A DNA stretch of 36,687 bases. It comes from Chloroflexota bacterium. Its GTDB lineage: Bacteria; Chloroflexota; Dehalococcoidia; Dehalococcoidales; UBA5760. The translations under genes and the position numbers were made by a program. Below are positions 1 to 9,182 of this stretch, piece by piece. The stretch's first letter is position 1. Every line of letters begins with the position of its first letter. The stretch spans positions 1-36,687 of the forward strand of contig JADFUW010000015.1 of the NCBI GenBank assembly GCA_015222205.1, read 5' to 3'. The notes beneath the pieces were generated by a model. The model made no database searches and was not told the DNA's origin. It saw nothing but the letters and a program-made list of their open reading frames with translations.

Positions 1-168
1 AGAGCCATCAATACTGAGCGATGTAACCAGTGTGGCATTTGTCTTCTCATCGGGTGCCCTGCCATTCAGAGTGAAAACAGGCAGATTTACATTGACCCAA
101 CCCTGTGTGTTGGCGACATTTGCACTATCTGTCAGCAGATTTGCCCCCGGCAGGCAATAGGTCCATAA
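1..168 (+). CDS. iorA: Indolepyruvate:ferredoxin oxidoreductase alpha subunit, C-terminal end (partial)
   Basis: Only the last 55 codons are in the window; the 5' part lies to the left. The frame reads from base 1 to a TAA at 166-168 and carries two [4Fe-4S] ferredoxin-type clusters of cysteines: CNQCGICLLIGCP, then C-x5-CTICQQICP. This matches the C-terminal ferredoxin domain of IorA, which passes electrons from the thiamine-diphosphate site to ferredoxin during oxidative decarboxylation of aryl-pyruvates to aryl-acetyl-CoA. The next gene is the matching beta subunit, which supports the call. Another 2-oxoacid:ferredoxin oxidoreductase of this split type is possible, since the TPP domain is not visible. 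Confidence 0.85.
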   Translation, partial: RAINTERCNQCGICLLIGCPAIQSENRQIYIDPTLCVGDICTICQQICPRQAIGP

Positions 169-232: not shown

Positions 233-829
233 GTGAAGAAGTTTGACTTGCTTATTACCGGGGTAGGGGGACAGGGGGTCATCCTAGCCAGCAACATGAT
301 TAGCGAGGTTGCCTTAGCCGCCGGATACGATGTCAAGAAAACGGATACCCTGGGTATGGCACAGCGAGGGGGTAGTGTGGTAAGTCATGTGCGCCTAGGC
401 CATCGGGTCTGGTCACCCTTAATCAAGGCAGGTGAGACTGACATGCTGATTGCCTTTGAGAAGCTGGAGGCAGCCAGATGGAGCCACTACCTCCGACCCG
501 GGGCGATAGCCATCGTCAATAACCATGCGCTCCCGCCACTCCCTGTCAATCTAGGCAACGAACGATACCCCACTGATAAAGAAATAACCGATATCCTAAA
601 ACGACGAGCAGACAGCATTTACCTCATCAATGGTACCAGCCGGGCAAGGGAATTAGGCAACATCAGAACGCTTAACATGTTTCTGTTAGGATGTGCCTCA
701 CTTTTTCTCCCCCTCAAGGTTAGCATCTGGAAAGACAGTATCTCTCAGTACCTAAAACCAAGTATAAGGCAAATTAATATTACAGCTTTCAGCCAGGGTA
801 GGAAGGAAGTCCGAGATGCCTATCGCTGA
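233..829 (+). CDS. iorB: Indolepyruvate:ferredoxin oxidoreductase beta subunit
   Basis: The 198-residue protein is the gamma-type domain of 2-oxoacid:ferredoxin oxidoreductases. It opens with the typical GVGGQGVILAS glycine-rich segment (residues 10-20) and the MAQRGGSVVSHVR segment (about 42-54), both characteristic of IorB. With IorA it would convert indolepyruvate, phenylpyruvate or hydroxyphenylpyruvate to the acyl-CoA with reduction of ferredoxin in the cytoplasm. The start is GTG with only a weak purine-rich ribosome site (GAGCGAGG) upstream. It follows iorA by 64 bases and overlaps the aminotransferase gene by 14 bases, so the three genes are very probably one operon and translationally coupled at the second junction. 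Length is normal for the family. Confidence 0.9.
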   Translation: MKKFDLLITGVGGQGVILASNMISEVALAAGYDVKKTDTLGMAQRGGSVVSHVRLGHRVWSPLIKAGETDMLIAFEKLEAARWSHYLRPGAIAIVNNHALPPLPVNLGNERYPTDKEITDILKRRADSIYLINGTSRARELGNIRTLNMFLLGCASLFLPLKVSIWKDSISQYLKPSIRQINITAFSQGRKEVRDAYR

Positions 830-2003
830 CAAAATCCAGCAAAGTATGACACAAGGGTCGTGGATTCGGAAGATGTTTGAGGAGGGGGCTGTCCTTAAGC
901 GACAGTATGGCGAGGAGAATGTCTTCGACCTCTCTCTGGGTAACCCAGTGATGGAACCCCCCCAGCAGTTCCGCCAGGAACTAAGACGGCTGGCTGAGGA
1001 ATCTCTGCCGGGTATGCACCGATACATGGAAAACGCCGGCTATGCCGAGACAAGGGCAGCCGTAGCAGCACAGCTCTCACTGGAGACCAGCATCAGATTC
1101 ACCAGGGATGATATTATCATGACCTGCGGTGCTGCGGGAGCAATAAACGTAGTGCTCAAGACAATACTTAATCAAGGGGACGAGGTCATTATATTTGCCC
1201 CTTACTTTCCAGAGTATATCAACTATATCGAGAATCACAGTGGCATAACCAGGGTACTACCCACAGATGAGCAATTTATACCCCAGCTTGATACTCTCGC
1301 TACTACCATCGGGGCAAAAACTAGGGCAGTAATCATAAACTCCCCCAATAATCCCTCTGGCGTCGTCTACAGTCAGGACTTCATGCATCAACTTGGGAAA
1401 CTAGTCGGCAGAAAGGAGACTCAATACGGGACAAAGATTTTCCTCATCAGCGACGAGGCTTATCGCCGGATTATCTACGACGGACAGAAATATCCACAGG
1501 TTTGGCCACATTACCAGCAGAGTATCATCGTCAGTTCTCACTCCAAGGATTTGGCACTGCCCGGTGAACGTATTGGCTACATCGCCGTCCACCCCAGCTG
1601 TAGCCAGCGAGAGGAGCTGGTAGCCGGCCTTATCTACTGCAACCGAACGCTGGGATACGTTAATGCCCCAGCCCTGATGCAACACATCGTCAGCCGCTTG
1701 CAATCAGTAACCATCCCTGTAGAGGAATACCAGGGGAAGAGAGATTTTTTGTACCACCATCTGAGTGAGATGGGTTACTCAGTAATAAAGCCTCAAGGGG
1801 CTTTCTATATGTTCCCCAAATCACCACTAGACGATGATGTTGCTTTCGTGAGAGAATTACAGCAGTGGCGGGTGCTGACAGTGCCCGGTCGCGGCTTCGG
1901 GTCGCCGGGGTACTTTCGGATATCATACTGTGTTGATAACAGAACACTGGAAGGTTGCCTAGACGGTCTTCGCCAGGCTGCCCGAAAATTCAAGTTATGT
2001 TAA
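816..2003 (+). CDS. Pyridoxal-phosphate aminotransferase, class I/II
   Basis: A 395-residue fold-type I aminotransferase. Visible landmarks are GNP near 42-44, NNPSG at 178-182, SDEAYR with the PLP-contacting Asp213 and Tyr216, and the Schiff-base Lys244 in SHSKDLALPGERIGY. The C-terminal Arg for the substrate carboxylate is likely the one in YFRISYC. It would interconvert amino acids and 2-oxo acids. Its overlap with iorB suggests that it supplies aryl-pyruvates (from Phe, Tyr or Trp) to the oxidoreductase, or works in reverse for synthesis; substrate choice cannot be read from the sequence. The ATG at 816 has a good ribosome site (GGAAGGAAG) 5 bases upstream. Confidence 0.88.
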   Translation: MPIADKIQQSMTQGSWIRKMFEEGAVLKRQYGEENVFDLSLGNPVMEPPQQFRQELRRLAEESLPGMHRYMENAGYAETRAAVAAQLSLETSIRFTRDDIIMTCGAAGAINVVLKTILNQGDEVIIFAPYFPEYINYIENHSGITRVLPTDEQFIPQLDTLATTIGAKTRAVIINSPNNPSGVVYSQDFMHQLGKLVGRKETQYGTKIFLISDEAYRRIIYDGQKYPQVWPHYQQSIIVSSHSKDLALPGERIGYIAVHPSCSQREELVAGLIYCNRTLGYVNAPALMQHIVSRLQSVTIPVEEYQGKRDFLYHHLSEMGYSVIKPQGAFYMFPKSPLDDDVAFVRELQQWRVLTVPGRGFGSPGYFRISYCVDNRTLEGCLDGLRQAARKFKLC

Positions 2004-2120: not shown

Positions 2121-2561
2121 ATGAATAAGATGTCAGAGACGGCAAACAGGGCGTCTGATAATGTAGCAGAATTGAGAACCAAGGCAAAGGATGACCAGAT
2201 CGCTGCCTTCCTGGAAATGAGGCTGCTGGAGCTTAGCCCAGGCTACGCTAAAGTAGCCATTAGGTTAAAACCCAAATACCAGAACTTTCACGGCGTTATC
2301 TTCGGTGGTATTATTATGGCTTTGGCTGACCAAGCATTTGCCTATGCCTCTAATTCTCTAGTTTATCCCAGCGTGGCTTCCCAGTTTAACACCCACTTCA
2401 TCGCCGGTGCCGAGGTGAATGATGAACTCACCGCTGAGTGTCGGGTACTAAAAAGCGGCCGGCGGGTTGGTATCTCCGAGATAGCGATAACTAATCAGAA
2501 CGGCAAGCTCATCGCCAAAGCCACCGGCACGACTATCCCGCTGGCTGAACCAAGTTGCTGA
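2121..2561 (+). CDS. PaaI-like hotdog-fold acyl-CoA thioesterase
   Basis: A 146-residue hotdog protein of the PaaI (phenylacetyl-CoA thioesterase) group. The family signature is clear at residues 55-76: NFHGVIFGGIIMALADQAF, with His57-Gly58 and the likely catalytic Asp70. It hydrolyses acyl- or aryl-acyl-CoA to the free acid and CoA, acting as a tetramer in the cytoplasm in characterised relatives. It lies 117 bases after the aminotransferase on the same strand and has a strong ribosome site (GAAGGAGAG). Placed after iorAB it plausibly releases aryl-acetate from the CoA thioester; this is inference from context. The first 25 residues are a low-conservation extension, so Met4 (ATG at 2130) could also serve as the start. 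Confidence 0.82.
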   Translation: MNKMSETANRASDNVAELRTKAKDDQIAAFLEMRLLELSPGYAKVAIRLKPKYQNFHGVIFGGIIMALADQAFAYASNSLVYPSVASQFNTHFIAGAEVNDELTAECRVLKSGRRVGISEIAITNQNGKLIAKATGTTIPLAEPSC

Positions 2562-2612
2562 GCACATTATATTAATATAACCCTAATCTAAACCGTTAGA
2601 CTCATCTACCAG

Positions 2613-2633
2613 CCAGAAAGCCCTTGGTATTGA
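2613..2633. repeat. 21-base direct repeat, copy 1
   Basis: This 21-base stretch (starting CCAGAAAGCCCTTGGT and ending ATTGA) recurs exactly at 2816-2836. Similarity continues weakly upstream of both copies: each is preceded by an AT-rich run and CCCTAAT, about 35-45 bases earlier. The pair brackets the small minus-strand gene at 2649-2750. I did not find a third copy by eye. Confidence 0.85.
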
Positions 2634-2648
2634 GATATACCAGAAGTA

Positions 2649-2750
2649 TTACTTTTTTGAGTATAGTGAACAATACCAAAAAATAGCAAAACTACCAAGT
2701 AAGAGACCTAGACCACCAAAAAAGATACCTATAGAACCCAGAAATTCCAT
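2649..2750 (-). CDS. Predicted 33-residue single-span membrane peptide
   Basis: An open frame of 33 codons on the minus strand, from ATG (2748-2750) to TAA (2649-2651). It is supported by a near-perfect ribosome site GGAGGTG at 2756-2762, five bases before the start. The product begins MEFLGSIGIFFGGLGLLLGS, continues as one hydrophobic segment of about 25 residues ending in FWYCSLY, and finishes with a basic SKK tail, so an N-out/C-in single membrane span is likely. Regular glycines (GxxxGG, GxGxxxG) could allow helix packing. I recognise no family. It sits alone between two copies of a 21-base repeat. It could be a small membrane regulator or a toxin-like peptide; neither can be shown from the sequence. 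Confidence 0.5.
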   Translation of the reverse strand: MEFLGSIGIFFGGLGLLLGSFAIFWYCSLYSKK

Positions 2751-2815
2751 ATTTTCACCTCCGAAATGATAGTTTATTACAGCATATCATATCCCTAATT
2801 CAAATTGATACACTA

Positions 2816-2836
2816 CCAGAAAGCCCTTGGTATTGA
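2816..2836. repeat. 21-base direct repeat, copy 2
   Basis: Exact second copy of the repeat at 2613-2633. Here the final TTGA of the repeat runs into CA and so forms the -35 box of the promoter proposed at 2833-2862. In copy 1 the repeat is followed by GATATACC instead. Confidence 0.85.
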
Positions 2837-2862
2837 CAGGGCAATTCAGGCTATGATAAACT
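2833..2862 (+). promoter_or_regulatory. Sigma-70-type promoter for the ligase-liv operon
   Basis: A consensus TTGACA (2833-2838) is followed after 18 bases by TAAACT (2857-2862), a 4/6 match to TATAAT; with a 17-base spacer the hexamer would be ATAAAC. Transcription would start near 2869 and give a leader of about 255 bases before the acyl-CoA ligase start codon. The -35 box overlaps the second direct repeat. Confidence 0.5.
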
Positions 2863-2901
2863 GCTCTCTATTAAGACAAAGGATAATAGGGTAGAAGGTT
2901 A

Positions 2902-3003
2902 ATGGGGATGTCCACTGCTAACGAGAGACAGTGGGAAACTACTAAATTCGTCTTTACCAGGCGCACTCAGGTGCGCTTGGGGAGGTCTGACATACATATT
3001 TAG
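2902..3003 (+). other. Possible 33-codon leader reading frame
   Basis: A frame runs from ATG 2902 (or ATG 2908) to TAG 3001-3003 inside the transcript leader. AGAAGG at 2893-2898 is well spaced for the second ATG (9 bases) and too close to the first (3 bases). The predicted peptide has five Thr and five Arg and is not rich in branched-chain or aromatic residues, so ribosome-stalling control by liv substrates is not obvious. It covers the antiterminator arm at 2975-2986, so translation could influence folding. It may equally be chance. Confidence 0.25.
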
Positions 3004-3078
3004 TTAGCTACCAAAACGGTTTATCTATATAGTCTGAGGCACAGAGTACCTCCCCAAGCGGAGGTGCTCTTATTATTT
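2912..3078 (+). promoter_or_regulatory. Candidate attenuator: terminator with a 12-base antiterminator arm
   Basis: Four elements can be read. (1) Hairpin CCACTG/CAGTGG (2912-2934). (2) Hairpin GCGCAC-TCAG-GTGCGC (2961-2976). (3) GCTTGGGGAGGT at 2975-2986. (4) A terminator-like hairpin with an 11-bp stem (3043-3053 with 3060-3070, one G-U pair, six-base loop), followed by TATTATTT. The 12 bases of element 3 are the exact reverse complement of 3048-3059, which form the 5' arm and loop of the terminator, so the two pairings exclude each other. Element 2 shares two bases with element 3 and could compete with it. This is the layout of a transcription attenuator or riboswitch expression platform. 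It matches no class I recognise: no T-box AGGGUGG-ACCGCG bulge and no cyclic-di-GMP or SAM core. Confidence 0.6.
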
Positions 3079-3125
3079 GGATATAGCGCTCCCCAGCTAT
3101 GTCTGAGGGTCAATAGGACGGAATA

Positions 3126-5060
3126 ATGGTCAACATGGTGCCAACCGAAGAGCGAAATACAATTCCCAAACTTATTATGTATAACCACAAAAGATGGGGC
3201 TGCCAGACGGCTATGTGCATGAAGAAATTCGGCATCTGGCAGAGATATAGTTGGCAGGACTACTATGAGAAAGTAAAGTACTTCTCATTGGGCCTAGTAA
3301 GACTTGGCCTAGAACCAGGGGATGTAGTTTGCATTATCGGAGACAATGAGCCGGAATGGTTTTGGGGTGAGTTTGCCACTCAGGCAGCAGGGGGTATCGC
3401 CACCGGGATGTTCGTTGACTCTACTCCCTCCGAGGTAAAGTATATAGCAGCCCACTCCGGTGCCAAATTTGCTGTAGTTAATGACCAGGAGCAGACAGAT
3501 AAGTTTCTGGAAATCAAGGACGAGCTACCAGCACTAAAAAGGATAATCTACTGGGACCCCAAAGGGATGAAAAACTACGACGACCCTATCCTTATTAGCT
3601 TTACCGAGGTAATGAGGCTAGGTAAAGCCTATGAAGAGACAGCCCCCGACTTGTTTGAGCAAAATGTAAAGAAGCAGCCGGGGGATACTATCGCCTTTAT
3701 TTACTACACCTCGGGAACCACTGACCTACCTAAGGGAGCCATACTTACCCACCAAGCCCTGATAAATACGGCCCTAAAGTTCATCAGCCGCTATCCACTA
3801 AATGAAAATGATGATTTGATTTCCAACTTTCCGGCAGCTTGGATAGGAGATAGTTTCTCCGCTACTATCCCCCACCTACTAACCGGAGCCAAGTTAAACT
3901 TTCCTGAGGAACCGGAAACCATTGCTGAAGATATCCGAGAGGTTGGCCCCAACTTAGTAACCTATGGTCCACGGCAATGGGAGAGTCTAGTCAGTGATAT
4001 TCAGGCAAAAATGACTCGCGCTACCCCCCTAAAGCGCTTCGTCTATAACCTATCCCTGCCGATAGGCTATAAAACCGCTGATAGTAAATTCCAGGGCAAA
4101 AGCCTAAGTCTGTCCTCACGAGCTGCTCACCGGATTGCCCACTTAGTATTATTCAAGCCCCTCAAAGACCGATTAGGACTAAGCAAAGTCAGGTTTGCTG
4201 TCACCGGCGGTTCTATGTTGAGTCCAGATACCTTTCGGTTAATCCATGCTATAGGTATTGACCTTAGAGAGAACTATGTCAGTACCGAAGCCGGCTTTAT
4301 TTCCTCTCATAGCAGGAAGGAAACCAAATTTGAAAGTGTAGGACGGCCAGTACTCAATACTGAAGTCAGGATAACTAAGAAGGGAGAACTCCTGGTTAGG
4401 AGTAACTCAATGTTTAGCGGCTACCATGAAGACCCCGCAAAAACTGCGGCAACCTTAGTGAATGGCTGGTGTCACACCGGGGATGCTATCAATATTGATG
4501 AGGAAGGACACCTGATATTTATGGACCGTCTAGAGCATATGGCTGAGCTAAGTTCAGGGATTAAATATGCCCCCCAGTATATTGAGAGTCGGCTGAGGTT
4601 CAGTACATATATAAAGAGCGCCCTCGTCATCGGCGGTAAAAATAGAGGTTTCGTCTCCGCCATACTAAACATAGACCCTGCCATATTAGCCAAGTGGGCA
4701 GAACACAACCGACTGGTCTACGCCACCATTGCCGACCTGTCCCAGAAAAAAGAGGTCGCCAATTTAATACAAAAGGACTTGGCTCAAGTAAATAGCTATC
4801 TACCTGAGCCAGCCAGAGTAAGGAAATTTGTCCTGTTCCCCAAAGAGTTTGACCCTGATGAAGCTGAACTTACCCGAACCCGAGAATTAAGAAGAACATT
4901 CATTGAGAAACGGTATAGAGAGTTAATCAACACCATATATAGCGGTGGTAGCGAGATAAAGGTTGAGGCACCGGTAATCTATAGAGATGGCAGAAAAGGC
5001 ATGGTAACCACCAGTATTATAGTAAGGACCGTATCCGACGGACTCATAGAGAATGGCTGA
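3126..5060 (+). CDS. AMP-forming acyl-CoA synthetase, long-chain/LIV-associated type
   Basis: A 644-residue ANL-superfamily adenylating enzyme that would activate a carboxylic acid to its acyl-CoA with ATP. The phosphate-binding loop is YYTSGTTDLPKGA at 193-205, with Asp in place of the usual Gly after TSGTT. The A5 region reads NYVSTEAGF, and the A7/A8 hinge GWCHTGD and DRLEHMAELSSGIKYAPQYIE belongs to the long-chain acyl-CoA synthetase group. The A10 motif reads LTRTRELRR at about 582-590. The residue normally a catalytic Lys appears to be Glu587, which is unusual. ATG 3126 has a modest AGGACGG site. The end overlaps livH by 8 bases, so the enzyme is made with the Liv transporter and probably acts on the imported acid. 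Confidence 0.85.
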   Translation: MVNMVPTEERNTIPKLIMYNHKRWGCQTAMCMKKFGIWQRYSWQDYYEKVKYFSLGLVRLGLEPGDVVCIIGDNEPEWFWGEFATQAAGGIATGMFVDSTPSEVKYIAAHSGAKFAVVNDQEQTDKFLEIKDELPALKRIIYWDPKGMKNYDDPILISFTEVMRLGKAYEETAPDLFEQNVKKQPGDTIAFIYYTSGTTDLPKGAILTHQALINTALKFISRYPLNENDDLISNFPAAWIGDSFSATIPHLLTGAKLNFPEEPETIAEDIREVGPNLVTYGPRQWESLVSDIQAKMTRATPLKRFVYNLSLPIGYKTADSKFQGKSLSLSSRAAHRIAHLVLFKPLKDRLGLSKVRFAVTGGSMLSPDTFRLIHAIGIDLRENYVSTEAGFISSHSRKETKFESVGRPVLNTEVRITKKGELLVRSNSMFSGYHEDPAKTAATLVNGWCHTGDAINIDEEGHLIFMDRLEHMAELSSGIKYAPQYIESRLRFSTYIKSALVIGGKNRGFVSAILNIDPAILAKWAEHNRLVYATIADLSQKKEVANLIQKDLAQVNSYLPEPARVRKFVLFPKEFDPDEAELTRTRELRRTFIEKRYRELINTIYSGGSEIKVEAPVIYRDGRKGMVTTSIIVRTVSDGLIENG

Positions 5061-5937
5061 ACTTATTCAATTCGTGACTACCGGTATAACCGTGGGCATG
5101 GTGTACGCCCTCATTGCCTTGGGCTTTGTCCTGATCTGGAAATCAAGTGGCGTTGCCAATCTGGCACTGGGACAACTGGTGCTGATTTCTTCATGGTTCA
5201 CCTATGGAATGCTAGTCCAAGTAGGTCTTCCCGTCTGGCTTGGCTTTCCCCTGGTTATCCTCTTCGCCATGGGTCTGGGCTGGATAACTGAGAGATTTGC
5301 TCTACGCCCACTCATTGGCCAGCCCATCCTGTCTCTAATCACGGTTACACTGGGGATAGCCTTTTTTATTCAAGGTGCCGTGAGCTTTATCTGGCCCAAA
5401 AGTGTGGCTGCCCTACCCCGTCTCTTCCCCGAGGAGCCTATCCACATTGGTACCGCTGTTGTCTCCCAGGAATACTTCTGGGCAGCTGTTATCTCCCTAG
5501 CCCTATTTGGCGCTTTATCCCTCTTCTTCAAGTACCATAAAATGGGCATCGCTATGAGGGCAGTTGCCGATGACCAGATGGCAGTTCAGGCCTGCGGTAT
5601 CCCGGTAACCAAAATCTTTTCCCAGTCATGGATGTTCGCCTGCGTACTAGCCGCTGTTGGTGGTATTCTTATGTCTAGCATCGGCGGCATCACCTTTGGT
5701 CTAGTTGAAACCGGACTCAAGGCCTTCTCGGTAGTGATACTCGGCGGCCTTGACTCCTTCCTCGGCGCCATTGTGGCCGGCCCTATAATCGGCCTAGCGG
5801 AAAACCTTGGCGGTGGCTATCTAACCCCGTTAACCTGGCCGGGCATCAGGGAGGTTATCCCGTTTATCATTATCATAATTGTTATGTGCATTAGACCCTA
5901 CGGGCTATTTGGAGAACGTCGCATAGAGAGGATTTAG
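5053..5937 (+). CDS. livH: Branched-chain amino acid-type ABC transporter permease LivH
   Basis: A 294-residue inner-membrane permease with about eight hydrophobic segments. Near the N-terminus it has the LivH hallmark GMVYALIALGFVLIWKSSGV and ANLALGQ. Around residues 160-180 it has the ATPase-docking loop with AMRAVADDQMAVQACGI, and later VILGGLDSFLGAIVAG. With LivM it would form the channel of an importer for branched-chain amino acids or related carboxylates. Its ATG lies inside the end of the ligase gene (8-base overlap), so translation is probably coupled. Substrate range in the family extends to urea, aromatic acids and amides, so leucine transport is not assured. Confidence 0.92.
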   Translation: MAELIQFVTTGITVGMVYALIALGFVLIWKSSGVANLALGQLVLISSWFTYGMLVQVGLPVWLGFPLVILFAMGLGWITERFALRPLIGQPILSLITVTLGIAFFIQGAVSFIWPKSVAALPRLFPEEPIHIGTAVVSQEYFWAAVISLALFGALSLFFKYHKMGIAMRAVADDQMAVQACGIPVTKIFSQSWMFACVLAAVGGILMSSIGGITFGLVETGLKAFSVVILGGLDSFLGAIVAGPIIGLAENLGGGYLTPLTWPGIREVIPFIIIIIVMCIRPYGLFGERRIERI

Positions 5938-5941
5938 CCAA

Positions 5942-6988
5942 TTGGATTTACCAACCGGTACCCGCAACTATAACTACGCCCATGATATGGCTATTTTCCG
6001 AACCAGGACCCACTGGATATGGCTCTCTGTTCTCCTGGCCTTTCTATTCACTGGCCCCCTGTATTGGGGGAACTACTGGTTGGGTGTTGCCAACCTCATC
6101 GGTATTACCATAATTGCCGCTACGGGATTAAATATCCTGACCGGATACTGCGGTCAGTTATCTATTGGTCATGCTGGTTTCATCGCTGTAGGTGCCTATA
6201 CCTCAGCGGTGCTAACCAATCGTTTTGAACTCCCCTTCATCGTGGGGCTAATCTCCGCCGGGTTTATTGCCGGCCTTGCGGGAATGATCTTTGGTATCCC
6301 TTCCCTGCGTGTCAAGGGCTTCTATCTGGCGATTAGCACTATCGCCGCTCAGTTTATCATTATCTGGGTTATCAATCACTGGGCCAGTGCTACCGGGGGC
6401 TTCACCGGCATAAGTGTGCCGCCAGCTTCAGTTGGTGGTATCTCCTTCATCAGCCAGGGAAGTCAGTTCTATCTAATTATGGGAATTGTGATACTGGTAA
6501 TCTTCCTAGCCAAAAACCTGGCCAGGACACGGCCCGGCAGAGCCTTTGTTGCCATCAGGGACAACGACCTAGCCGCCCAGGTAATGGGGATTAACCTCTT
6601 TCACTATAAACTCATCGCCTTCTTTATCGGTTGTTTCCTGGCTGGAATCGCCGGTTCACTACTCGCTCACTGGACTGGCTTTATGAATGCTGAAAATTTT
6701 ACCATGATGGATTCAATACTGTATATTGGCATGATAATTATTGGCGGCTTGGGCACTACCGTCGGCCCCATCTTCGGCGCCATTTCTATCCGGATGCTGC
6801 AACAGGCAATAACCCTCATTTCACCCAACCTGGAAAGCGTCTTCCCAACCTTGCCCGCCGGATTCACCACCGGCATCGGGCCGATGGTTTTTGGCCTAGT
6901 CATTATTCTATTCCTGATATTAGAGCCACGGGGGTTGGCCCATAGGTGGACACTACTTAGAACCTCTTACCGGCTCTGGCCTTTCTAA
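5942..6988 (+). CDS. livM: Branched-chain amino acid-type ABC transporter permease LivM
   Basis: A 348-residue multi-span permease, partner of LivH. Family landmarks are GLNILTGYCGQLSIGHAGFIAVGAY (about 60-84), GIPSLRVKGFYLAI, the docking-loop stretch GRAFVAIRDNDLAAQVMGI and GGLGTTVGPIFGA. The start used is TTG at 5942, four bases after the livH stop, with AGAGAGGA seven bases upstream. An in-frame ATG at 5987 (residue 16) is the alternative and would leave the first membrane span intact. The gene is co-directional and tightly packed with livH. Confidence 0.9.
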   Translation: MDLPTGTRNYNYAHDMAIFRTRTHWIWLSVLLAFLFTGPLYWGNYWLGVANLIGITIIAATGLNILTGYCGQLSIGHAGFIAVGAYTSAVLTNRFELPFIVGLISAGFIAGLAGMIFGIPSLRVKGFYLAISTIAAQFIIIWVINHWASATGGFTGISVPPASVGGISFISQGSQFYLIMGIVILVIFLAKNLARTRPGRAFVAIRDNDLAAQVMGINLFHYKLIAFFIGCFLAGIAGSLLAHWTGFMNAENFTMMDSILYIGMIIIGGLGTTVGPIFGAISIRMLQQAITLISPNLESVFPTLPAGFTTGIGPMVFGLVIILFLILEPRGLAHRWTLLRTSYRLWPF

Positions 6989-7000
6989 TTATTAATCTTG

Positions 7001-7049
7001 AGAAGGAGGATAAAGAAATGTGATGCTGACTGAAGCCCCTGCCAATTAA
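7001..7049 (+). promoter_or_regulatory. Start-stop element (ATGTGATG) with strong ribosome site before livK
   Basis: A strong ribosome site (GAAGGAGGA, 7002-7010) lies seven bases before ATG (7018-7020), but the next codon is TGA (7021-7023). A second ATG overlaps that stop (7023-7025) and opens an eight-codon frame ending with TAA at 7047-7049. The true livK start follows at 7073 with its own GAAGGAGG site. This could be a minimal regulatory uORF, a translational buffer between livM and livK, or the scar of a deleted gene. Confidence 0.45.
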
Positions 7050-7072
7050 ACTTAACGAAGGAGGAATAATAA

Positions 7073-8332
7073 ATGAGCTACAAAAAATCCCTAAAAGTAG
7101 CCTTAGCCATATCCCTGACATTAACCATAGTTATGATACCCGTGCTGAGCAGTGGTTGCGCCGTTAGTAGCAGTGAGGATAACACCGTCAATAAGGTAAA
7201 GGTTGGCTTTAGTATTTGCTACACCGGGGTCGCCGCCGAGAAGGGACGCCCGATGGGTAATGCTAAGCTGGACTGCATGAAATACATCAACGAGGAGTTG
7301 GGCGGCGTTGCCGGACACCAGATTGAGGTGGTTTGGCGTGATAATGAATATGACGCCGCTAAAGCGGTTACCATCCTTAACGAGCTAATGGACAAGGGCT
7401 GCCTGTTCTTTACCACTAACTCCTCCAAGATGATGGGGGCGTCTATGGAGATTGCTAATCGGGCTGATTTTCCTGGCTTTACTGTCTTCAGCTCCCCGGT
7501 ATGCACTCATCCGCCGCAGCATATCTATGCCCAGACGCCCGACTATGGTGACGACTGGGCTGCCTTTGCTACCAACTACCTGGAGAATATCTGGCAGGGC
7601 GAGGGGAAACCAAGGATGGCCATGCACCTGCTTAGCAACCCCACCGGTTATGGTGCCTTGGATGCATCTAAAGCCCTAGCTGACGAGCTGGGTATTGAGA
7701 TTCTACCTGTCGCGGAGCACACAGCGACAACTATATCTGAGATGGAAAGCCTGACCCGAATTAAGGCGCTGAATCCAGATGTCCTGTTCATATCCAGCAC
7801 ACCGCAGCCAACTTCAATCATTATCCAGAATGCGGTTGACCTGGGTATGTACCCCGGTATCACTATTGGTTGCGCTCATGCCAGCTTTACCAAAAAGTTG
7901 ATTGACTTCGCTGGTGCGGATGCTGAGGGTGTTTATGGCACCTTTCCTACCGTAAGGTGGGGAGAGGATGTGCCGGCTATGGCCAAGATGACCGAGTATT
8001 GCCAGCAATATCATCCTGACGACTACGGCAACATGGACTACATCACCTCGTGGGCAGAAGGCTTAATCGTAGCCGAGATTCTAAGATTGGCCATAGAGAA
8101 TGTCGGCGTTGACAATCTAACCCCGCAGGCAGTAGAGGAGTATGGCATCAAGAAGCTTTCAAACTTTGATGTTGGCAGTCTTCAGGGTCCGGTAAGCTAT
8201 ACGCCGGGAGACAACCGACTAACCAAGTTTAACCGAATCTATCAAATAGTAAACGGCGAAATCACAAACCCAAGCGCCTGGGTAGAAGCGCCACTGATAA
8301 AGTACGAAGACTTTGACTGGTTCGGCAAGTAA
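7073..8332 (+). CDS. livK: Liv-type ABC transporter substrate-binding lipoprotein
   Basis: A 419-residue periplasmic-binding-type protein (leucine-binding family, Peripla_BP_6). It starts with a signal peptide: basic MSYKKSLK, a hydrophobic core to residue 24, then LSSGC with Cys29 as the likely lipidation site. The mature part has the type I fold features VKVGFSICYTGVAAEKGRPM, Ala/Gly-rich strands and YGDDWAAFATNYLE. It would be anchored outside the cytoplasmic membrane and deliver substrate to LivHM. A strong ribosome site (AAGGAGG) precedes ATG 7073. The ligand cannot be named; the neighbouring acyl-CoA ligase hints at an organic acid rather than a simple amino acid. Confidence 0.9.
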   Translation: MSYKKSLKVALAISLTLTIVMIPVLSSGCAVSSSEDNTVNKVKVGFSICYTGVAAEKGRPMGNAKLDCMKYINEELGGVAGHQIEVVWRDNEYDAAKAVTILNELMDKGCLFFTTNSSKMMGASMEIANRADFPGFTVFSSPVCTHPPQHIYAQTPDYGDDWAAFATNYLENIWQGEGKPRMAMHLLSNPTGYGALDASKALADELGIEILPVAEHTATTISEMESLTRIKALNPDVLFISSTPQPTSIIIQNAVDLGMYPGITIGCAHASFTKKLIDFAGADAEGVYGTFPTVRWGEDVPAMAKMTEYCQQYHPDDYGNMDYITSWAEGLIVAEILRLAIENVGVDNLTPQAVEEYGIKKLSNFDVGSLQGPVSYTPGDNRLTKFNRIYQIVNGEITNPSAWVEAPLIKYEDFDWFGK

Positions 8333-8342
8333 AGATTTGGGT

Positions 8343-8371
8343 AGGAGCCCCTGCCTTGAGCGGGGGCTCCT
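8343..8371 (+). promoter_or_regulatory. Stable intercistronic hairpin between livK and livF
   Basis: A 12-bp stem (8343-8354 with 8360-8371, one G-U pair) and a five-base loop lies 11 bases after the livK stop codon. It is not followed by a T-run, so full termination is unlikely. It more plausibly protects the 3' end of the livK message or gives partial read-through, which would fit the need for more binding protein than ATPase. Confidence 0.55.
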
Positions 8372-8390
8372 GCTAACAGAAGGTTAGGGT

Positions 8391-9182
8391 ATGCTTAAGC
8401 TGAGTAACGTTGAGGTTGCCTATTCCAATGTTATACAGGTGTTACATGGCGTCTCCCTGAGTGTGGAGGACGGCTCGATTGTTACCCTACTTGGCGCCAA
8501 CGGTGCTGGCAAGAGTACCACTCTCAAGGCAATATCAGGGCTACTTCGAACTGAGGAGGGAGAAGTAACCGATGGCAGCATCGATTGGAACGGTAAAAGA
8601 ATAGATAACAAAAGCGCCGAAGAAATTGGCAAGCTGGGTATTATTCAGGCACTAGAGGGACGCCGGGTCTTCGAGCACCTAAATACGGAGGAAAACCTGC
8701 TGGTTGGGGCTTATAACCGCAGCGACCGTCCTGCCGTCAGGCAAGACTTGGCCATGGTTTACCAATACTTTCCACGGCTCAAGGAACTCAGGCACAACAC
8801 CGCTGGTTATCTTTCCGGAGGTGAGCAGCAGATGCTGGTCATCAGCCGGGCCATAATGGCTAGCCCAAAGCTCCTGATGCTAGACGAGCCATCACTAGGT
8901 CTGGCACCAATGCTGGTTGAAGAAATATACGATATTATCCTGCGGTTTAATACGGAACATAAAACCTCGGTCCTCCTCGTGGAGCAGAATGTCAGGGTTG
9001 CCCTCGGTATCGCCCACTACGGTTATATCATGGAAAATGGCCGTGTTGTTCTTGATGGTAGTGCCGATTTCCTGAGGAATAACGAGGATGTGAGGGAATT
9101 TTACATCGGGCTATCAGCTACAGGCACGAAAAAAAGCTACCGAGAAGTAAAACACTATAAGAGGCGAAAGCGGTGGCTATAG
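8391..9182 (+). CDS. livF: Liv-type ABC transporter ATP-binding protein LivF
   Basis: A 263-residue ABC ATPase. Walker A is GANGAGKST at 35-43, the signature LSGGEQQ is at 141-147, and Walker B LLMLDEP is at 161-167, followed by the H-loop region. The segment LGIIQALEGRRVFEHLNTEENL is typical of LivF rather than LivG. The C-terminus carries a basic tail (SYREVKHYKRRKRWL) beyond the usual 235-240 residues; I recall this tail from LivF proteins next to AMP-ligases. It is transcribed with livHMK and should pair with the LivG encoded on the opposite strand at 9292-10119. The start is ATG 8391 after AGAAGG. Confidence 0.92.
   Translation: MLKLSNVEVAYSNVIQVLHGVSLSVEDGSIVTLLGANGAGKSTTLKAISGLLRTEEGEVTDGSIDWNGKRIDNKSAEEIGKLGIIQALEGRRVFEHLNTEENLLVGAYNRSDRPAVRQDLAMVYQYFPRLKELRHNTAGYLSGGEQQMLVISRAIMASPKLLMLDEPSLGLAPMLVEEIYDIILRFNTEHKTSVLLVEQNVRVALGIAHYGYIMENGRVVLDGSADFLRNNEDVREFYIGLSATGTKKSYREVKHYKRRKRWL

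Follow-up and report, generated by a model that had tools for sequence, protein, structure and literature searches.

A predicted phenylalanine-sensing transcription attenuator and its Phe/Tyr regulon in Dehalococcoidales

INTRODUCTION

The leaders of the enterobacterial pheA (Rfam RF01859, Phe_leader) and pheST genes carry Phe codons before the first arm of a series of pairings that includes an antiterminator and an intrinsic terminator. In the trp and his leader attenuators of Proteobacteria and Actinobacteria, codon-specific ribosome stalling likewise picks either the antiterminator or the terminator (PMC1262725). T-box leaders likewise respond to uncharged tRNA and act on genes of these kinds, but they bind the tRNA directly. 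According to a survey from 2010, leader-peptide systems had until then been demonstrated in Proteobacteria and Actinobacteria alone; the survey extended them to Firmicutes and left Chloroflexi unmentioned (PMC2965389). The main text of a 2024 motif survey that covered Dehalococcoides reports an rdhA motif and no aromatic attenuator; the ilvB uORF motif (uORFC-75-1) was first taken for a riboswitch and then recognized as a leader-ORF attenuator, a correction that applies here too (PMC11109978).

Herein, we analyzed the leader of an acyl-CoA ligase-liv operon in a 36,687-nucleotide stretch of DNA from a Chloroflexota bacterium of the order Dehalococcoidales (contig JADFUW010000015.1, hereafter the window). 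The locus resembles the enterobacterial pheA and pheST leaders in its Phe codons before arm 1, its antiterminator and its intrinsic terminator, and a target class (the prephenate pathway and pheST) is common to both. In contrast to the pheA leader, a single conserved cassette recurs in front of many operons, the host is Dehalococcoidales, and leaders of the ligase set have just two Phe codons. It differs from the trp and his leaders in the amino acids concerned, with no sequence relation found, and from the ilvB uORF motif, which has branched-chain codons and belongs to one gene in Corynebacterium (PMC11109978). No published description of this attenuator was found in the main texts of open papers. 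We propose, with a probability of about 0.88, that the leader is a ribosome-mediated transcription attenuator sensing the supply of phenylalanine via charged tRNA-Phe.

RESULTS

Promoter and leader peptide

The following features of the leader were located in the window, all on the forward strand.

2833..2862: promoter, with −35 TTGACA at 2833-2838, an 18-nt spacer and the extended −10 TG-A-TAAACT at 2854-2862
2893..2898: Shine-Dalgarno-like AGAAGG, read from the sequence, 9 nt before ATG 2908 and 3 nt before ATG 2902
2908..3003: leader peptide ORF MSTANERQWETTKFVFTRRTQVRLGRSDIHI, 31 aa, stop TAG at 3001-3003; the alternative start ATG 2902 adds MG
2947..2955: regulatory codons TTC-GTC-TTT (Phe-x-Phe)
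2957..2966: arm 1, CCAGGCGCAC, 5′ strand of the anti-antiterminator hairpin 1:2, with the loop at 2967-2970
2971..2986: arm 2, GTGCGCTTGGGGAGGT; 2971-2980 pairs with arm 1 and 2974-2986 with arm 3
3048..3060: arm 3, ACCTCCCCAAGCG, pairing with arm 2 (antiterminator); 3048-3053 also belongs to the 5′ strand of the terminator
3043..3078: intrinsic terminator, stem-loop 3043-3070 and tail TATTATTT at 3071-3078

The consensus −35 box named in the initial annotation is present together with an extended −10, and the leader of about 255 bases that it placed downstream stands as described. Transcription would start near 2869. Among 98 non-redundant sites, the pattern TTGAC(A)-16..19-TAnnnT occurs upstream at 96, compared with 1.9% in shuffled sequence, and TG precedes the −10 box at 93, compared with 0.15% in shuffles. 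The initial annotation had regarded transcripts starting downstream of 3070 as evidence against a switch; the conservation of a TTGACA-type promoter at 96 of 98 sites favors the switch. The cassette, with its promoter conserved across sites, is apparently transcribed as a unit. A perfect 21-nt direct repeat, CCAGAAAGCCCTTGGTATTGA, was also observed at 2613-2633 and 2816-2836, 203 bases apart. Because the second copy reaches into the −35 box, part of the promoter region may have arisen by duplication.

A short putative ORF with a start codon, overlooked in the initial annotation, lies between the promoter and the terminator. The frame containing F-x-F was open at all 98 sites, with no stop in 1372 codons, compared with 24 and 42 stops in the other two frames of the same leaders. 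An in-frame ATG was found upstream at 93 of the 98 sites (5 and 4 in the other frames), at a median of 14 codons before the second Phe codon. In the window, the codons TTC-GTC-TTT end one base short of the ACC codon that enters arm 1. The control codons at arm 1 are thus those of the amino acid proposed to be regulated: the second was Phe at every site, and the first was Phe at 95 and Tyr at 3. The middle codon almost always encoded V, I, T, A, or M. Past the hairpin loop, the reading frame varied by site (..TxVRLG.. or ..TRCAWG..) and the nucleotides remained conserved, indicating that selection acts on the peptide up to arm 1 and from there on acts on the RNA. As a side observation, the second Phe codon (2953-2955 in the window) was TTT at 98 of 98 sites and the first was mostly TTC, which may reflect a codon choice for sensitivity or a constraint on the RNA.

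Mutually exclusive pairings

The leader contains three mutually exclusive pairings, 1:2, 2:3, and 3:4, that end in an intrinsic terminator. The terminator-like hairpin at 3043-3070 that had been pointed out in the initial annotation is there, with its tail TATTATTT. The 12-base complement at 2975-2986 is in fact one of 13 nt, in which CGCTTGGGGAGGT (2974-2986) perfectly matches ACCTCCCCAAGCG (3048-3060), and it was the sole inverted repeat detected in 2400-3200. Likewise, the hairpin drawn at 2961-2976, sharing bases with the antiterminator arm, is real and extends to 2957-2980. A further hairpin at 2912-2934 does fold in the window, but it was not seen in the relatives inspected and was left out of the model.

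The free leader folded as hairpin 2957-2980 plus the terminator (z −3.05 against shuffles, 1 of 200). A strict terminator search was passed by 92 of the 98 sites. At least six Watson-Crick pairs between arm 2 and the 5′ side of the terminator were found at 88 of 97 sites, whereas an upstream control segment gave 5 of 97. Together with the conserved promoter, these comparative counts exclude a chance arrangement. In a swap test, arm 2 formed better pairings with the native downstream region than with regions taken from other sites (z 8.6), and the value was 8.3 when terminators were located independently of arm 2. This coevolution supports the mutually exclusive pairings put forward in the initial annotation. 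Compensated antiterminator variants included CGCTTAGAGG/CCTCTAAGCG, GCCGGGGG/TCCCCGGC, CGCTGGGGAGG/CCTCCCCAGCG, and GTGGGAGGT/ACCTCCCAC. For hairpin 1:2, 92% of the cells paired in an alignment fitted to the model, and the conserved part of its stem showed replacements of C-G by T-A, G-C by A-T, and A-T by G-C. A first count of pairs in this hairpin gave no excess of covariation, because the collection of sites by exact pattern had fixed the stem; the wider site set does show compensatory pairs. The initial annotation would have been contradicted by a lack of compensatory changes among relatives, and the compensation found favors the switch.

These data also bear on whether an ordinary intrinsic terminator is accompanied by a chance complement, with the conservation due to a DNA operator at the palindrome GCGCAC-n-GTGCGC. 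The core is indeed palindromic and lies just downstream of the promoter. However, an operator would leave unexplained the open frame, the invariant asymmetrical flanks, the coevolution of antiterminator and terminator, and a distance from arm 2 to arm 3 that stays nearly constant at about 45-75 nt, and we give this explanation practically no credence.

A ligand-binding riboswitch, in which direct binding of an acid, an acyl-CoA, or free Phe to the leader would shift the pairing, would share the mutually exclusive hairpins and could explain why the core TTTACCnGGCGCAn..TGCGCTTGGG is so strongly conserved in its nucleotides. However, this core is a single hairpin that lacks a junction and a conserved loop, the loop varying in both sequence and length. 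At all 98 sites the flank of the core is an open frame, Tyr codons have been added precisely where the targets make Tyr, and no Rfam riboswitch matched. Because there is an open frame and no aptamer-like conserved fold, we reject this reading as very improbable. The initial annotation had offered an attenuator or a riboswitch, controlled by a ligand or by translation. Of these, the attenuator is retained and the riboswitch is not, since the conserved part is an ORF of translated type; translation control agrees with the open frame and the invariant Phe codons before arm 1, and ligand control does not. Similarly, among the signals it considered plausible, the Phe codons point to an amino acid, and an acid or acyl-CoA is unsupported.

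Proposed mechanism

The ORF, codons, three pairings, promoter, and targets come from sequence comparison, from which we infer stalling, termination, and antitermination. In the proposed attenuator, RNA polymerase would start near 2869 and a ribosome would translate the 31-codon leader peptide. When Phe-tRNA is scarce, the ribosome would stall at TTC/TTT (2947-2955) and cover arm 1, so that hairpin 1:2 is blocked. Arm 2 would then pair with arm 3 (13 bp), no terminator would form, and the ligase-liv operon would be transcribed. When Phe-tRNA is plentiful, the ribosome would advance over arm 2, or depart and allow 1:2 to form. Arm 3 would then be free, the terminator would form, and transcription would end near 3075. 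The products of the ligase-liv operon would import and activate an aryl acid (phenylacetate-like), from which IorAB and the aminotransferase would make Phe, a step that is less certain.

The computed pairing probability of the terminator in the window was 0.98 without a ribosome, 0.08 with the ribosome stalled at TTT, and 0.98 with the ribosome past arm 2. In equilibrium folding over 92 sites, 32 switched as cleanly as the window, and with a stalled ribosome the antiterminator stayed below 0.5 at 38 of the 92, where the terminator outcompetes it. Since only 32 of 92 switch cleanly, equilibrium folding was not relied on outside the window; for the remaining sites kinetic folding, which is usual for attenuators, must be assumed. 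A second strong hairpin, GGATATAGC..GCTATGTC, was observed at about 3076-3100 in the window, downstream of the terminator and ahead of the ligase start codon, and is possibly a 5′ end stabilizer or a processing site.

Relation to known families and distribution

An Rfam search of the leader matched no family, either at the gathering threshold or at E ≤ 5, and a tRNA/tmRNA search of it found none. The T-box covariance model (RF00230) had no match at the site. T-box leaders were nevertheless found in 28 of 31 genomes of this order, one to four per genome (for example, G000:C12:7676-7965), indicating that both kinds of tRNA sensing coexist there. RF01859 had no match in the window, and the best of 13 relatives (site L102) reached 30.9 bits (E 0.21), below the gathering threshold of 55 bits. 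That full-length match lies exactly on the site, and is a resemblance, not membership. The view in the initial annotation that no known class applies therefore holds for the sequence family, but the mechanism is of the classical pheA/trp/his leader type.

When 61 genomes were searched at the DNA level, the leader turned up in many families, and the block at the hairpin was strongly conserved. Scanning named genomes for the exact pattern yielded 33 stretches, almost all of which came from Dehalococcoidales, other Dehalococcoidia, or Chloroflexi MAGs. Four exact-pattern matches in other phyla (L046, L056, L059, and L069) were set aside as probable chance matches, because three are without the F-x-F core and the fourth lies inside a long frame. 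A covariance model, the kind of test suggested in the initial annotation, was built for the core. With E ≤ 0.01 as the cut-off, it detected the cassette in 99 of 156 genomes from the order; the window's own genome carries two copies (E 5e−13 and 6e−9). When 393 genomes were sampled across the class, matches outside the order were confined to three genomes of one family. All 14 matches in a phylum-wide sample of 400 genomes fell within the same order, and no sampled genome outside the class had one. A search of viral contigs gave no match.

The attenuator is thus a new sequence family of the classical kind, with an order-wide Phe/Tyr regulon. It makes this regulon readable from sequence alone for an order of largely uncultured bacteria, relatives of organohalide respirers, and extends leader-peptide attenuation to a phylum for which we found no report.

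The ligase-liv operon and its neighbors

The genes on both sides of the leader in the window are as follows, all on the forward strand.

1..168: iorA, C-terminus, upstream of the leader
233..829: iorB, upstream of the leader
816..2003: aminotransferase, upstream of the leader
2121..2561: PaaI-like thioesterase, upstream of the leader
3126..5060: acyl-CoA ligase (AMP-binding, FadD-like, PF00501), first gene of the controlled operon
5053..5937: livH
5942..6988: livM
7073..8332: substrate-binding protein
8391..9182: livF

For iorB, the best NCBIfam match was the indolepyruvate oxidoreductase subunit beta, with a score of 233.9 against a cut-off of 237. The best match of the thioesterase was the hydroxyphenylacetyl-CoA thioesterase PaaI, under its cut-off. 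The liv genes (5053-9182) comprise two permeases, a binding protein, and one LivF-like ATPase, with no LivG directly adjoining.

The order iorAB-aminotransferase-paaI-[leader]-ligase-liv recurs in many relatives. Among close ligase orthologues of the order, the leader was detected at E ≤ 0.01 in 64 of 70, and closer inspection added another two, compared with 0 of 14 distant ligase paralogues; three close orthologues with enough upstream sequence had no recognizable leader.

An aryl-acid route to aromatic amino acids via indolepyruvate oxidoreductase occurs in archaea. Here, an acyl-CoA ligase, IorAB, and an aminotransferase would form the same chain. Unlike the archaeal route, the locus also has a liv-type importer and an adjoining PaaI-like thioesterase, and the substrate of the ligase is only predicted. 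Since the ligase is FadD-like, an aryl-acid substrate is an indirect prediction. Expression on Phe shortage would fit import and CoA activation of an aryl acid, followed by conversion to Phe by IorAB and the aminotransferase. Given iorAB, the aminotransferase, and the PaaI-like thioesterase alongside, the operon probably serves a salvage route from aryl acids to Phe. The orphan ligase-liv operon, whose genes would otherwise carry fatty-acid or branched-chain amino-acid annotations, is thereby predicted to supply phenylalanine.

Regulated genes and control codons

We classed 114 sites by simple motifs, under which some sites called "other" are ligases or DAHP synthases and some called "hisC" are CoA-transferases; the target was a ligase at 67 and a DAHP synthase at 19. 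The remaining classes were hisC-type aminotransferases, CoA-transferases, octopine-type dehydrogenases, PheS, and a few others, and representative targets were confirmed with Pfam. The second copy in the window's genome precedes aroF-aroB-aroD-aroE-aroK-aroA-aroC-pheA (shikimate to prephenate, with DAHP synthase first), in which the genes after aroF, including pheA (chorismate mutase/prephenate dehydratase), were named from translated starts only. At L224 the leader stands before pheS-pheT, and at L215 and L221 it sits between hisD-like and hisC-like genes.

Control codons were counted over the nine codons ending at the second Phe. Per site, Phe and Tyr codons averaged 3.5 and 0.5 for pheS, 2.4 and 0.2 for ligase, 2.2 and 3.2 for DAHP synthase, and 2.1 and 2.8 for hisC leaders, and hisC leaders at L186 and L187 had up to eight consecutive Tyr codons. 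Ligase leaders were enriched in Phe only, as were those of pheST. This resemblance to pheS leaders indicates a Phe signal for the ligase-liv leaders. The attenuator cassette, with Tyr codons added for shikimate/prephenate and HisC genes, is predicted from these comparisons to serve a Phe/Tyr regulon. One cassette would thus stand in front of many unrelated operons and have its control codons adjusted to each of them.

The same counts help to weigh nascent-peptide arrest of the TnaC or Erm leader type, in which F-x-F-T-x-R would stall the ribosome on a small molecule with the same pairings downstream. Such arrest would fit the nearly invariant F at −2 and 0 and R at +3, the aliphatic or small residue at −1, and the T at +1 in 77 of 98 sites. 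However, the Arg and Thr codons fall in arm 1 and may be retained for pairing, the first Phe can be Tyr (3 of 98), and the number of Tyr and Phe codons varies with the target, as codon sensing predicts. We therefore consider arrest on a small molecule quite unlikely and prefer sensing of charged tRNA-Phe. Neither the invariant TTT nor the restricted middle codon of F-x-F is required by tRNA sensing alone, and the small number of control codons in the ligase leaders, just two, also counts against it. A more speculative idea, which we hold to be doubtful, is that the invariant F-x-F-T-x-R peptide with its fixed TTT might be a dedicated nascent-chain-aided stalling module, in which upstream Tyr/Phe codons would tune the amino acid sensed and one mobile cassette would have spread over the aromatic-acid regulon.

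Several individual targets were also observed. At L220 and L222, leaders precede ABC transporters with a BPD_transp_2 permease, with an SNF-type symporter or an octopine-type dehydrogenase nearby; these transporters probably take up aromatic amino acids. At L218 (2202-9501, reverse strand; leader L185), the place ahead of aroB and the rest of an aro operon, held by DAHP synthase in relatives, is taken by an HMGL-like aldolase, which may represent an alternative first step or a gene that has been displaced. At L214 and L223, from one family, the leader precedes genes for a CoA-transferase, an HgdB/HgdC-like dehydratase, an activator, an FAD-oxidase, and Fe-S proteins. This cluster, which lies under the putative Phe/Tyr attenuator, is similar to aryl-lactate (fld) clusters.
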